A DNA stretch of 64,000 bases from Balneola sp. GTDB lineage: Bacteria > Bacteroidota > Rhodothermia > Balneolales > Balneolaceae. Made by a program: the position numbers and the translations under genes. How positions within the stretch are numbered: the first letter of the stretch is position 1; every line of letters starts with the position of its first letter. The notes beneath the pieces were generated by a model. The model made no database searches and had not been told where the DNA came from. It saw only the letters and a program-made list of their open reading frames with translations. The stretch lies in the NCBI GenBank assembly GCA_017640785.1, contig JAEPPZ010000006.1, positions 1-64,000 on the forward strand. The letters run 5' to 3'. Of this stretch, positions 12,768-33,429 are shown in pieces.

Positions 12768-13158
12768 AAATCTCCCTTTGAGGGGAGCTCAAAATCATTG
12801 TCCAAATGATTTTGCGAGGGGTGTTTTAGGCTCCAAACCCCAAAAACATCCCTCTGATCTCGTACAAGCACTCGATCTGTCTCCCTTCGAAGGGAGAATT
12901 TTCTTTCTTCGTATTCCTGAATTTGATTCAGGATCTGTAAGAAATATAGTTTTGAGCTAGCACAGATTCCGGATCAAGTCCGGAATGACCACAAGGCTGT
13001 CATTTCGACCGGAGGGAGAAATCTATAGATTTGCTTTAAAGGCTTTGATTTAATTATTCAGGTAAAATGGGACTAACAGTCTCCACAAAGATCCCGAAAC
13101 AAGTTCGGGATGACGAGTTCATTTCCGTGCCTTTGTGCTTCTGTGGCTTAACAAACCA
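12768..13158. repeat. Gene-free mosaic of dispersed repeats
   Basis: 391 bases without a convincing gene. It holds, in order: a composite element (12771-12897) bounded by TCTCCCTTTGAGGGGA and TCTCCCTTCGAAGGGAGA, also found at 16178-16307 and as an inverted partial copy from 31927; a palindrome TTCCGGATCAAGTCCGGAA (12967-12985); a half unit of the GTCATTTCGA...GAGAAATCT family (12999-13030); and CACAAAGATCCCGAAACAAG... (13084-13115), whose core CCCGAAACAAGTTCGGG is palindromic and which recurs at 15171, 15369 and 16136. A 69-codon open frame across the area is not a gene: it runs through repeat units. Confidence 0.8.
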
Positions 13159-13878
13159 CTACACCAAATAACTACCCGAGTTAATATGAAAAGTTTGTCC
13201 CGTAGCATGGGTAAGTTTTCCCGAAGCTAGTAACAGCACCATTTCAGCGATTTGTTCCGGTGGAGCGATGGAATCTAATGCAAGATCTTTTGTGAGATAA
13301 TCTTCTCCGTACACTTCGATTGAACCTTGAGCCATATCGGTATTCACAAAACCCGGAGCAATGGAATAAGCAGTAATTCCATCTTTGCCGGAGCTCCGTG
13401 CAATGCTTTTGGTGAAAGCGATCATTCCGGCTTTACTGGCTGCATAAGCTGCGTATTCGCCCGTGTCGCCTCGAACTCCGGCTCTGCTGGCAATGTTGAT
13501 GATCCTCCCTTCTATTCCACGTTCTTTCCACGCATTGATCGCCCATTTCGAGATCAAAGCCATGGACCGAAGATTTACTTGCTGGGTTTTATCCCATTTA
13601 GTCATCCAGTCTTCATCAGAATCCTCAAACTGAGCTTCTATGAATATTCCGGCATTGTTAATTAATACCTTCGGGACTTCGTCTTCGCTGAATAGCTGCT
13701 TTAGTTTGTTTACTTCTGTTGGGTTAGATAAATCACAAATCGTATGTCGGTATTCGTTATTGGTGAATTGGTTATTGTGTGATGTCGATACACCAATCAC
13801 CTCATAACCATTATCCAATAACAAATCAGCGATCGATTTACCTATTCCGCGGGAAGAGCCTGTAAGGAGTGTTTTCAT
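13159..13878 (-). CDS. Short-chain dehydrogenase/reductase
   Basis: 239 residues, classical SDR with a Rossmann fold. Cofactor motif TGSSRGIG is at residues 6-13, NNAG at 74-77, and the catalytic Ser131 and Tyr145-x-x-x-Lys149 (YAASK) are present. After the active site comes SIAPGFVNTDM, the usual PG segment. FabG-like 3-oxoacyl reductase or a general alcohol/ketone reductase are both possible. Its start region (13830-13878) is duplicated at 14416-14464 with three synonymous changes. The gene is divergent from the DUF4160 gene with only 25 bases between start codons, so the promoters must overlap. Confidence 0.9.
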   Translation of the reverse strand: MKTLLTGSSRGIGKSIADLLLDNGYEVIGVSTSHNNQFTNNEYRHTICDLSNPTEVNKLKQLFSEDEVPKVLINNAGIFIEAQFEDSDEDWMTKWDKTQQVNLRSMALISKWAINAWKERGIEGRIINIASRAGVRGDTGEYAAYAASKAGMIAFTKSIARSSGKDGITAYSIAPGFVNTDMAQGSIEVYGEDYLTKDLALDSIAPPEQIAEMVLLLASGKLTHATGQTFHINSGSYLV

Positions 13879-13903
13879 TTTTTAAATCTTTATATTAAAC
13901 TAA

Positions 13904-14146
13904 ATGAGTCCAACAATATTCAGATATAAAGGTTACAGATTCTTTTTCTTTTCCAGAGAAGAAGAAAGAATACACGTCCACGTTATACATGCTGAAGGCG
14001 AAGCTAAAATTTGGTTAGAACCAAAAATTGAACTCAATAAATCAGTTGGTTTGAATTCTAAACAAATTAGTGAGATTTTAGATCAAGTTGAAAAACACGA
14101 AAAAGAAATAATAAAGAGCTGGAATGATCACTTCAACAAAACATAA
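13904..14146 (+). CDS. DUF4160 protein
   Basis: 80 residues. The core FRYKGYRFFFFSREEERIHVHVIHAEGEAKIWLEP is the DUF4160 signature: a short beta-rich fold in which G-x-x-x-x-F-x-S-x-E-x-x-x-x-H-I-H-V precedes a small acidic strand carrying W-L-E-P. It overlaps the DUF2442 gene by 23 bases. DUF4160 and DUF2442 genes are commonly neighbours in mobile or accessory regions and are suspected to be a toxin-antitoxin-like or regulatory pair; that function is not proven. The local G+C seems lower than that of the neighbouring SDR, consistent with a later arrival. Confidence 0.8.
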   Translation: MSPTIFRYKGYRFFFFSREEERIHVHVIHAEGEAKIWLEPKIELNKSVGLNSKQISEILDQVEKHEKEIIKSWNDHFNKT

Positions 14147-14372
14147 AACAGAAGTAACAAATATATCTTCACACGGTATTTGGTTGTTTTATGAAAGAAA
14201 GGAATATTTTCTTCCATACAGTGAATTTCCATGGTTCAAAGACGCCAAAGTTCAGCATATACTAAATGTTGAAACCCCATCTGAAAACCATTTTTTCTGG
14301 CCTGATCTGGACATTGATCTAAGTTTAGATTCCATAAACAACCCTGGAAAATATCCTCTTGTAGCGAGCTAG
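14124..14372 (+). CDS. DUF2442 protein
   Basis: 82 residues. It has the DUF2442 pattern: an N-terminal strand, then LFYERKEYFLPYSEFPWFKDAKVQHILNV, where the family shows L-x-F-D/E-x-G-x-x-x-x-L-P-x-x-x-F-P-x-L, and a C-terminal HFFWPDLDIDLSLDSI, where the family has I-H-WP-x-L-D-x-D-L-S. The start at 14124 lies inside the upstream DUF4160 gene, so the two are translationally coupled. Described members sit next to DUF4160 proteins. Function unknown. Confidence 0.82.
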   Translation: MITSTKHKTEVTNISSHGIWLFYERKEYFLPYSEFPWFKDAKVQHILNVETPSENHFFWPDLDIDLSLDSINNPGKYPLVAS

Positions 14373-14415
14373 CTCACAATTCTATCTCCATAGCATCTAT
14401 CCAATTACAATTAAT

Positions 14416-14464
14416 CGATCGATTTTCCTATTCCTCGGGAAGAGCCTGTGAGGAGTGTTTTCAT
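14416..14464 (-). pseudogene. Duplicated 5' edge of the SDR gene
   Basis: 49 bases that match 13830-13878 with three differences. They encode MKTLLTGSSRGIGKSI, identical to the first 16 residues of the SDR at 13159-13878; all three changes are at third codon positions and synonymous. The frame then leaves the SDR sequence, so this is a fragment, on the same strand and in the same orientation as the intact gene. Synonymous-only divergence suggests the piece comes from a working SDR allele of a relative, not from a freshly decayed copy. Confidence 0.85.
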
Positions 14465-14503
14465 TTAACTATCTTAATTTAAATTTTAACGAATTTTAGA
14501 AGT

Positions 14504-14947
14504 ATGCCAATCGAAATACCAGATGGATATCCAAATAACTTAGAAGATGATATACTTTTAGCAAAGATTAAAGAATTTCAAACAGAAGTAGCAAAAGTTT
14601 CTAGATCTAAAAATTACTCAAAAGGTTCAAGCTATTGGAAAAATGTAGCAGACATAGGACAGAATGAGTTAATGCTAAGACTTCAAAGAAAACAAATTAA
14701 AGCAAATAAGAACTCAAGAATTACTAGTTATATTATCAATTTAGCATCAATAGCAATGCTTTTAACGTCTCTCTGGATTGCAAATGATACTCGTAAATTA
14801 GCGGAAGCAGATCAAACTTCAGATGAGAATTGGAGAACCGAACAGTTGAATACATTATTGGAAAGTAATAGACTATTACAAGAAGTGAATACTAGATTTG
14901 AAAATATACCAATTGTATTCTTATCTGATTCAGTTGAAGTAAACTAA
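14504..14947 (+). CDS. Single-pass membrane protein of unknown function
   Basis: 147 residues, not recognised. A charged N-terminal domain (1-70) precedes one hydrophobic helix at about 76-93 (ITSYIINLASIAMLLTSLWI) and a polar, probably coiled-coil tail (LNTLLESNRLLQEVNTRFE). The layout suggests an inner-membrane anchor with a cytoplasmic N-terminal part. It sits inside the cassette bounded by duplicated edges of the SDR and DUF2480 genes, so it is probably accessory cargo. Lys and Asn are frequent and the DNA is AT-rich. Confidence 0.6.
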   Translation: MPIEIPDGYPNNLEDDILLAKIKEFQTEVAKVSRSKNYSKGSSYWKNVADIGQNELMLRLQRKQIKANKNSRITSYIINLASIAMLLTSLWIANDTRKLAEADQTSDENWRTEQLNTLLESNRLLQEVNTRFENIPIVFLSDSVEVN

Positions 14948-15543
14948 CCATTTAACCCGTTTCTCAACCTCGCTCTAAGCTCTGCTTGGGAACGCCCACG
15001 TGAAGATCCTGCTTCCCATCCCTTCTTTGTCATTTCGATCGGAGGGAGAAATCTAAAGTTTACCTTCAACAGCTATCTTAGATTTCTTGGTCATCAGCCG
15101 ACTGGCTGATTCAACTCGAAAGGACGGAGACTCTGACTAATTTACTGAATAGATTGATACTAAAAGCCTTCACAAAGATCCCGAAATAAATTCGGGATGA
15201 CGTGCTATTATTTTTGTGTCTTTGTGTTTCCGTGGTTAACTAAAAAATCAACCTTTCCAAACAGGTACAAAAGAACAAGCTTCGCCCCAACGTCATGCTG
15301 AACTCGTTTCAGCATCTTAAGTCAACGACTTTGATTTACTAAACAGGTTAGGATAAAGATTAAGGCTTCACAAAGATCCCGAAACAAGTTCGGGATGACC
15401 ACTTTTTTTTGTGAGTTAGTGTTTCCGTGGCTACCCAACCTAGCGCAGGCGTTGCGCTTGTGCGGGATTATTATACTAGCCTTAATACAAAAATAGTCCA
15501 AGCGAGACGCTTGAACTATTAACTAGTATCCACTACCTAAAAA
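14948..15543. repeat. Gene-free mosaic of dispersed repeats
   Basis: 596 bases without an intact gene. Contents: a TGTCATTTCGA...GAGAAATCTA unit (from 15032); CACAAAGATCCCGAAATAAA... (15171-15202) and its relative at 15369-15400, each followed by a GTGTCTTTGTG/TTTCCGTGG stretch also seen near 13124; the DUF2480 3' fragment (15248-15286); GTCATGCTGAACTCGTTTCA... (15292-15321), repeated at 16059-16088; and a two-part palindromic element (15441-15464 with GCGCAGGCGTTGCGC, and 15494-15520 with CAAGCGAGACGCTTG) that has a counterpart at 32032-32095. Confidence 0.8.
15248..15286 (-). pseudogene. Duplicated 3' edge of the DUF2480 gene
   Basis: 39 bases encoding GEACSFVPVWKG and a TGA stop, identical in protein to the last 12 residues of the DUF2480 gene at 15544-16053. 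The DNA differs from 15544-15582 at four positions, all third codon positions and all synonymous. Orientation is the same as in the intact gene. Upstream the frame is not DUF2480. Confidence 0.85.
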
Positions 15544-16053
15544 TCATCCCTTCCATACAGGTACAAAAGAACAAGCTTCTCCGTACATTATCTTCTTGGC
15601 TGTTCCCATTAACTTATTGGTAGCCAGTAAATAGATAGAATCAGGTACATGAATATCTCCACAACCTTTGAGGAGTACAAATTTATCTTGGTAGGCGCTC
15701 CAATCAAAAGCTTCTACCCTTCTTCGGTAGAGTTCGTGAGTGACTTCTTTTGGGGTAAGATGAAATACTTCTTCGGCAAATTGATTGGCATAACTAGTGA
15801 TCAACATCCAAGCCCATGGAGCAATAATGGCATCGGTTGAGCAGAACACAGATAAGTACTTTCCTTCAAACTGCGACCAATCAAAATCCTTCAAATGCTG
15901 ACGAAAATCTTTTTCCTTCAACAACATTTCCATATGCAGGAATTGCTTGATGTCCAGCTCCGCAATTGGAGTGGGATCATGGAATAACTTAGCCAGGTCT
16001 ACGGTGACCAGCTTTGTATTCGCTTTTACTTTGTTGATGATTGGTTCTTGCAT
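15544..16053 (-). CDS. DUF2480 protein of the suf region
   Basis: 169 residues. It matches the Bacteroidota family DUF2480: IINKVKANTKLVTVDLAKLF at the start, then LHMEMLLKEKDFRQHLKDFDWSQFEGKYLSVFCSTDAIIAPWAWML, and CGD-x-x-x-P near the C-terminus (LKGCGDIHVPDSIYLL). The family commonly sits in suf Fe-S assembly clusters of this phylum, and here it follows sufB-C-D-S, nfu and iscA on the same strand after a repeat-filled 258-base gap. Conserved cysteines (CSTDAI, GCGD, GEACSF) would allow metal or sulfur handling, but the function is not known. Confidence 0.85.
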   Translation of the reverse strand: MQEPIINKVKANTKLVTVDLAKLFHDPTPIAELDIKQFLHMEMLLKEKDFRQHLKDFDWSQFEGKYLSVFCSTDAIIAPWAWMLITSYANQFAEEVFHLTPKEVTHELYRRRVEAFDWSAYQDKFVLLKGCGDIHVPDSIYLLATNKLMGTAKKIMYGEACSFVPVWKG

Positions 16054-16311
16054 AATAGGTCATGCTGAACTCGTTTCAGCATCTTAAGAATTAGCTTTAA
16101 ACTATATAATTAATTGTTTTACTGTTTGAAGTCCTCACAAAGATCCCGAAACAAGTTGGGGATGACGTTAAACTTATTCTCCCCTTGAGGGGAGCTCAAA
16201 ATCATTGTACAAATGATTTTGCGAGGGGTGTTTTTAAAGCTCAGAAGCCTAAAAACATCCCTCTGATCTCACGCAAGCGTTCGATCTGTCTCCCTTCCAA
16301 GGGAGATTTCA
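16054..16311. repeat. Repeat-filled gap between iscA and DUF2480
   Basis: It contains GTCATGCTGAACTCGTTTCA... (16059-16088, second copy of 15292-15321), CACAAAGATCCCGAAACAAG... (16136-16167) and the second full copy of the composite element (16178-16307). In that element CAAAATCATT and AATGATTTTG form an inner hairpin and the ends carry TCTCCC...GGGAGA arms. The repeats stand between the stop of iscA and the start of DUF2480, so co-transcription is uncertain. Confidence 0.8.
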
Positions 16312-32185: not shown

Positions 32186-32716
32186 ATGCCTAAAAAACTA
32201 ACTACCAAAGAAATACTTGAAGAGAATCTGTCTCAAAAACCACCGGCTAAATTAGCTGAGGTAAAAGTGATCCTTCATAATATTAGAAGTCTGCATAATG
32301 TGGGCTCTGTTTTTCGTTCTTCGGATGCATTCGGAATTTCTGAATTGATTCTAACCGGATATACTCCCACTCCTCCCCGACCTGAGATCAACAAAACAGC
32401 CATTGGTGCGGAAGAATTTGTGGAATGGAGACATTTTGAAAGGGCAACTGAGATCATTGAATCACTTAAGGAAGATGGATATTCCATTTTGGGGATGGAA
32501 CAGACAACAGGAAGTATTTCCCTCAACAAACTTGATGTTAATAACTACGATAAGATCTGTCTGGTGATGGGAAATGAAGTCACCGGTATCGATTCCGAAA
32601 TTCTCGAATTGATGGACGAATTTGTAGCCATCCCACAGTTTGGCCAAAAGCACTCGCTTAATGTTTCAGTTGCCGCTGCGGTGATGCTTTATGCGTTGTT
32701 GGAGAAGCTGAGTTAA
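32186..32716 (+). CDS. TrmH/SpoU-family RNA 2'-O-methyltransferase
   Basis: 176 residues, SPOUT trefoil-knot methyltransferase without extra N-terminal domain. Motif 1 is HNVGSVFRSSDAFG with the catalytic Arg region, motif 2 LVMGNEVTGIDSE, motif 3 IPQFGQKHSLNVSVAAAVMLY. These bind S-adenosylmethionine in the knot and methylate a ribose in tRNA or rRNA. The size suits small TrmH-like proteins that act on tRNA. Specific target unknown. It stands alone between repeat regions. Confidence 0.92.
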   Translation: MPKKLTTKEILEENLSQKPPAKLAEVKVILHNIRSLHNVGSVFRSSDAFGISELILTGYTPTPPRPEINKTAIGAEEFVEWRHFERATEIIESLKEDGYSILGMEQTTGSISLNKLDVNNYDKICLVMGNEVTGIDSEILELMDEFVAIPQFGQKHSLNVSVAAAVMLYALLEKLS

Positions 32717-33429
32717 GGAAATGATATATATAACCCTGACAGGGTTATAATTTACTTATTTCGTGATTTATACCATCTACAAACCCTGTCAGGGTTATAA
32801 ATAGACAAAGTCATCTCGTGGCGTATGCCCGAGATCTGGATCTAGTTGAAGCTTACCGTCTATTATTACAATTCAGATTCCTGCCTTCGCAGTAATGAAT
32901 TTAATTATAAAATGTTAAAGACCTCCTCTGTCTCCTCCTGCATCAGGAGGAGAACTCGTTGATAAAATTTTCAATATGCTTGGGATTTCCCCTCCTTATC
33001 CAAGGAGGGGTGAACTACTTACTGCCCAACAATTTGTTGCGGAATTGGGGAGGTCCAAATCTTGCTCTGCCTCGACTGGAATTAACCCTGACAGGGTTAT
33101 AATTTACTTATTTCGTGATTTATACCATCTACAAACCCTGTCAGGGTTGTAAACTCGAGAAACTTAACCTAGCTCTTTATCACATTTTTAAGTTTTTGAA
33201 CCACTGATTTAATGGATTAAAGGATATCAAGGATATCAAGGATATTTTATCCAAAAAAATCCGTGTTAATCCGGCTATCTGATTAATCCGCGGTTCAAAA
33301 TTGATAGTGAGTTATTTATTTATTCAGCAAAAGCTATTCATTAACAAAAAGTATTAAAATCCGAAACTGATTTCCCTATTTACTTGTTAGACAAGTAGAA
33401 CAAAGAAAAATTTAATCTAACTACAAAAA
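32717..33429. repeat. Gene-free repeat region with two 70-base direct repeats
   Basis: 713 bases without a gene. A 70-base unit at 32731-32800 recurs at 33083-33152 with one difference. Each unit begins and ends with an AACCCTGACAGGGTT-type palindrome. Between them lie two other palindromes (CTCCTCCTGCATCAGGAGGAG core, CCCCTCCTTATCCAAGGAGGGG core). After the second copy, 33193-33300 has GAACCACTGATTTAATGGATTAA at one end and its partner TTAATCCGCGGTTC at the other, enclosing a short tandem GGATATCAA. The last 120 bases are the upstream region of the 68-residue gene. Confidence 0.85.
33381..33397 (+). promoter_or_regulatory. Palindromic operator candidate
   Basis: TACTTGT (33381-33387), spacer TAG, ACAAGTA (33391-33397): a perfect 7-base dyad with 3-base spacer, 33 bases before the start of the 68-residue membrane protein gene. 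The size and spacing suit a dimeric repressor of TetR or MarR type. No such regulator is encoded in the window. Confidence 0.45.

Follow-up and report, generated by a model that had tools for sequence, protein, structure and literature searches.

The interval between a conserved short-chain dehydrogenase gene (SDR) and its neighbour DUF2480 is supported as a recurrent, integrase-free hot spot for small accessory cassettes in Balneolaceae. We think it probable that the cargo of this slot is gained, replaced and stacked by recombination anchored in the two conserved flanking genes, and that some of these events leave an edge of the recipient's own gene stranded behind the new cassette. The slot was studied in a window of 64,000 nucleotides from Balneola sp. 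(contig JAEPPZ010000006.1, positions 1 to 64,000), in which SDR (13159-13878, minus strand, ATG at 13878; Pfam PF13561/PF00106) and DUF2480 (15544-16053, minus strand, stop at 15544; PF10652, 2.1e-57) form its borders. The SDR-DUF2480 block as a whole is flanked by direct repeats that are 82-96% alike (12771-12900 and 16178-16309).

DUF2480 is present in 86 of 92 Balneolaceae genomes. Its neighbourhood was read in 48 Balneolaceae genomes, in a comparison that runs between species and genera; Balneola itself is represented by eight genomes, among them the window's own (G000, 3.39 Mb). SDR adjoins DUF2480 in the same orientation in 38 of the 48 regions read, and among these syntenic genomes the gap between the two genes measures 1-163 bp in 20 and more than 200 bp in 18, the latter including seven of the eight Balneola species. 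Because the short gap is the commonest state across genera, it is taken as ancestral. The frequency of long gaps and the variety of their contents agree with the original prediction of a hot spot that collects small cassettes without an integrase; neither Pfam searches nor open reading frame lists revealed an integrase or a transposase among the slot cargo.

The long gaps contain twelve unrelated kinds of small gene or gene pair, drawn from many families. Two of them are found together in the window, both on the plus strand. Cassette Y consists of a DUF4160 gene (13904-14146; PF13711, 3.2e-17), located at the same spot in G005, G051, G052 and G055, and an overlapping DUF2442 gene (14124-14372; PF10387, 5.6e-13); cassette X encodes a 147-aa protein (14504-14947) with no significant Pfam or PADLOC family. 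One survey (PMC12654330) includes DUF4160/DUF2442 among toxin-antitoxin pairs, and Y is a likely candidate for such a pair. The other kinds are an RDD membrane protein, DUF3800, RlaP, an erythromycin-esterase-like protein, a TIR-like protein of 289 aa (PADLOC, 7e-6), a pair of 198 and 252 aa whose larger member is PD-T7-3-like (1e-7), a DUF5343 protein (PDC-M34A-like, 5e-9) paired with a DUF4145-like protein, a 166-aa protein without a family, a 105-aa membrane protein and a pair made up of an 80-aa protein and DUF2283. The weak matches of the TIR-like, PD-T7-3-like and PDC-M34A-like proteins suggest defence-like roles. Ten of the twelve kinds lie antisense to the operon and read away from SDR, usually beginning 23-115 nt from its start; the 105-aa gene and the 80-aa/DUF2283 pair read with SDR, and each ends in a stop that overlaps the start codon of SDR.

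Several assignments were tried for this cargo and not upheld. The 80-aa partner of DUF2283 had no Pfam hit that would make it DUF4258, and a comparison of G052 with G057 lent no support to the idea that the SDR 5' region travels with this cassette past the first codons. A promoter role for the SDR-start fragment, from which the cargo reads away, is no more than conjecture after a sigma-70 scan (four promoter-like sites against 7.2 expected, none of them suitable). Nor could a source in phages or plasmids be traced: viral contigs yielded no relative of the DUF4160 protein and plasmids none of X.

Homologs of X were found in only two other genomes of the 92, G062 and G053, which belong to two other genera and carry it in the slot beside the SDR start; in both it is the only cargo there, and Y is likewise the sole cargo in G005 and G051. 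Genomes with a single version therefore exist, as had been anticipated, and the window unites two configurations that elsewhere occur singly. The stacking first described is thereby supported.

Both cassettes are accompanied by displaced pieces of the flanking genes, in the places, order and orientation originally described. The SDR start (13803-13880) recurs on the minus strand at 14389-14466 as an old start comprising the first 26 codons, with a decayed distal half and two stops (86% identity over 78 nt; 90% over the 69 nt of 14398-14466), and the DUF2480 end (15539-15582) recurs, also on the minus strand, at 15243-15286 (91% over 44 nt). Neither edge has a further copy elsewhere in the 3.39-Mb genome, and no relative shows full tandem SDR or DUF2480 copies in decay, so that both observations named beforehand as contrary to the prediction failed to appear. 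When both edges of the 59 called genes in the window were scanned, only the SDR-start and DUF2480-end copies turned up. The claim that the copies differ from the intact genes at synonymous third positions only is correct for the stretches first compared (three changes in 49 nt for SDR and four in 39 nt for DUF2480), where such a pattern has a P of about 0.01-0.02 per fragment under random substitution. It does not extend to the full SDR homology, which beyond 14416, to about 14389, has eight more changes, among them the two stops and amino-acid replacements; once all 75 nt are counted, the excess of silent changes is not significant (P 0.09). As the homology runs past the cut and decays, the appearance of purely synonymous change depends partly on the limits of the comparison.

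In the original prediction, 14416-15286 was a complete second version of the interval, acquired from a relative and placed next to a Y cassette already there. The conserved order and orientation of both fragments, the silent differences over the stretches quoted and the presence of X alone between the two genes in other genera are all in keeping with such an import, which we nevertheless regard as unlikely, because the right-hand part of the supposed block does not belong to X. The intergenic flank to the right of the cargo (14966-15253) is common to G004, G007 and G002, with 92.4% identity to G004 over 289 bp. Moreover, collinearity extends over 14974-15433 in G007 (463 bp, 89.8%) and over 15211-15582 in G002 (372 bp, 94.9%), in each case including the DUF2480 fragment and the junction next to it, which is marked by a pair of REP-like palindromes (15292-15400); the cargo in place of X is the TIR-like gene in G007 and the RDD gene in G002. 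The fragment, junction and flank are thus shared despite different cargo and belong to an older event separate from X; the displaced DUF2480 end is a shared ancestral layer and not the edge of an X block. G002 even has one extra DUF2480-end layer, its first fragment and the following sequence matching the intact end and flank of G000. A REP-like palindrome pair also lies directly upstream of DUF2480 (16059-16167) in G000, G007 and G003 and is absent from G001, G002 and G004; one palindrome of this pair is identical to that beside the DUF2480 fragments.

The order in which X and Y arrived is best approached through relatives in which a stack can be compared with a simpler sister. G004 agrees with G002 in the RDD gene and its flank, down to the final 12 nt of an SDR start that lies 27 nt from RDD in both genomes, and has the 105-aa gene between this 12-nt remnant and its intact SDR. 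The SDR-start remnant beside Y in G052 and G055 (ATGCAGATATTAGTCA) is identical to the start of SDR in G053 and comes after the leader found in G051; the intact SDR of G052 and G055 begins differently (ATGATAGTTTTAATAA or similar). Judged from these alignments (G004 against G002; G052 against G051 and G053), the stranded SDR start adjoins the older cargo and the newcomer adjoins SDR, a polarity opposite to that expected if a block had entered next to an established Y. Applied to G000, this rule makes X most likely the older cassette and Y the newcomer, and the roles originally given to them are probably reversed. Y of G000 and Y of G005 diverge about as much as the core genes of these two genomes do, which gives no direct demonstration that Y was transferred, and the polarity proposed for G000 stands by analogy with these stacks. 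Comparison of the fragments with other species, suggested earlier as a way to the donor, yielded no exact donor of the SDR start, nor was one found for Y.

Displaced gene edges also occur away from the slot. A sample of 400 kb of G000 (346 called genes) contains three more displaced gene ends, all of them flanking small cargo; together with the scan of 59 genes in the window, this shows that gene-edge copies are rare outside the slot. At G000:C10:31982-33381 (L169), a second SDR-like gene has a ParD/ParE-like pair at its 3' end, where the pair separates the end of the gene from an identical 51-nt copy of it (32620-33381). G001 has a single copy and an empty site at this locus; the cassette and the displaced 51-nt end are present in G000, G002, G004 and G007. 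The sequence that follows the gene end in G001 is the one that follows the displaced copy in these four genomes, which indicates that the displaced copy is the original and that the present edge of the gene came with the cassette. Displaced 3' ends of 140 and 95 nt flank 1.1 and 2.1 kb of small open reading frames at G000:C11:152782-154789 and G000:C12:77449-81687, respectively. A copied EF-Tu end at G000:C12:14846-14933 lies beside a run of N and looks like an assembly artefact, and a copied stretch near a gene start at G000:C11:106228-109368 resembles the leader region of small peptide genes (MEFLNVLSREEMKNVKGGSMGV) and probably reflects paralogs rather than a displaced edge.

One feature of the slot speaks against recombination anchored in the flanking genes as the whole account. 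The type-A DUF2480 fragments all begin at the same base after the same repeat, which independent illegitimate junctions do not predict; the most plausible reason for their uniform start would be that a single junction founded them all and that the layers later recombined unequally. A quite improbable alternative is a dedicated route in Balneola that puts small antisense cassettes (toxin-antitoxin or defence-like) at conserved gene edges and always brings a replacement edge; in that case, a recombinase acting in trans would have left its mark in the constant start of the fragments and in the clean duplication of 51 nt.

The alleles of the gene edges bear on whether foreign DNA was involved at all. 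In G002 and G007, the fragment and the intact DUF2480 end of one genome are different alleles that encode the same protein sequence, and the fragments in these two genomes reject neutral decay at about 1e-4. Codon 162 of DUF2480 is TCT, TCA or AGT across five close species, the only switch between TCN and AGY among the 26 conserved serine codons of SDR and DUF2480. DUF2480 is also mosaic at both edges, its first 51 nt being identical in G001 and G002 with 16-18 differences to the others. Such mosaic edges, as read from the alignments, lend support to homologous recombination in the flanking genes, with no donor-recipient pair found. Downstream of SDR in G017 (L082 7507-7940), two tandem layers of the SDR 3' end were observed, the first with mostly silent differences and the second decayed.

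If whole genes had been duplicated in tandem between REP-like elements and had later suffered deletion and decay, with no foreign DNA involved, this would account for the recurrence of the REP-like palindrome upstream of DUF2480 (16059-16088) beside the DUF2480 fragments, and for the tandem units of about 200-300 bp in G007, G002 and G017. We consider it very unlikely, as the alleles of fragment and intact end differ while the protein is conserved (the serine switch included), the cargo differs between species, the empty site of G001 at the ParD/ParE locus shows insertion, and no relative read has a second full copy of SDR or DUF2480. Equally hard to credit is a site-specific or transposition-like insertion with a long target duplication made by a recombinase acting in trans, since the constant start of the type-A fragments and the clean duplication around the ParD/ParE cassette, which it would explain, stand against duplications that range from 12 to 140 nt, affect both the beginnings and the ends of unrelated genes and showed no common core, and against cargo devoid of integrase or transposase.

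We therefore return to recombination anchored in the flanking genes, for which the following course may be proposed. In most events, both ends would recombine homologously and the cargo between SDR and the common right flank would simply be swapped, as in minimal mobile elements. In some, an incoming cassette, possibly acquired by DNA uptake, would carry its own gene edge and recombine on one side within the flanking gene, presumably through RecA, and on the other side would join illegitimately just within the corresponding edge of the recipient. In this way the gene would take on the newcomer's edge, and the recipient's old edge would be stranded beyond the new cassette, beside the older cargo. 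In the window, an arrangement of SDR, X and DUF2480 with its older DUF2480-end layer would have come first, and Y would later have entered beside SDR and displaced the old start at 14389-14466. Unequal recombination, in which a donor fragment pairs with the intact gene end of the recipient, is the probable way in which DUF2480-end layers increase in number. The displaced recipient edges lie on one side of each cassette, and no crossover point could be pinned down within the anchor. Ku-type end joining was discarded as the illegitimate step because no Ku gene was found. DprA is encoded in all eight Balneola genomes and, as it also occurs in species not known for competence, is not diagnostic of DNA uptake.

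The slot shares features with several known systems. SXT-type elements insert in the 5' end of prfC by a tyrosine integrase; there, too, the inserted element provides the gene with a new 5' end, but no integrase is visible in the slot. Integrase-driven genomic islands differ in the same respect, since the cassettes contain no integrase and the edge duplications, at 12-140 nt, have no constant att core. Restriction-modification genes can be inserted with a long target duplication and then resemble our cassettes as small gene units flanked by a duplicated stretch of a neighbouring gene; here, however, the copies are often different alleles and not identical duplicates, the 51 nt being identical at the C10 locus but the alleles different at SDR-DUF2480. 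A closer parallel is found in minimal mobile elements, cassettes that lie between conserved genes and whose exchange is ascribed to homologous recombination in their flanks (Saunders and Snyder 2002; definition in PMC3898611). Like these, the slot has a conserved flanking pair (SDR and DUF2480), differing whole-gene cassettes as well as empty sites (between species, not strains) and cassettes in which no mobility gene was recognised, the 166-aa protein and several small ones having no family. Unlike those of Neisseria strains, the Balneolaceae cassettes vary across species and genera, stack and leave displaced gene edges. Homology-facilitated illegitimate recombination, which has been put forward for the immunity-gene stacks of Vibrio cholerae (PMC5361080), described also in PMC2884548 and reported in E. 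coli conjugation (PMC3240628), offers a counterpart for the stacking. The Vibrio cholerae arrays would similarly combine one homologous with one illegitimate end, the newcomer pushing older genes outward and leaving remnants, so that an array can be read as a sequence of arrivals; in the slot, by contrast, the cargo consists of unrelated and mostly antisense accessory genes, and what stays behind is a conserved neighbour's edge instead of an immunity gene.

In summary, the history of the SDR-DUF2480 slot, which is common to different genera of Balneolaceae, is unusually legible. Its displaced edges preserve the order in which cassettes reached a hot spot that has no integrase, and a search for such stranded edges makes a long-standing question, the entry of small accessory and defence-like genes into conserved gene junctions, testable genome-wide.
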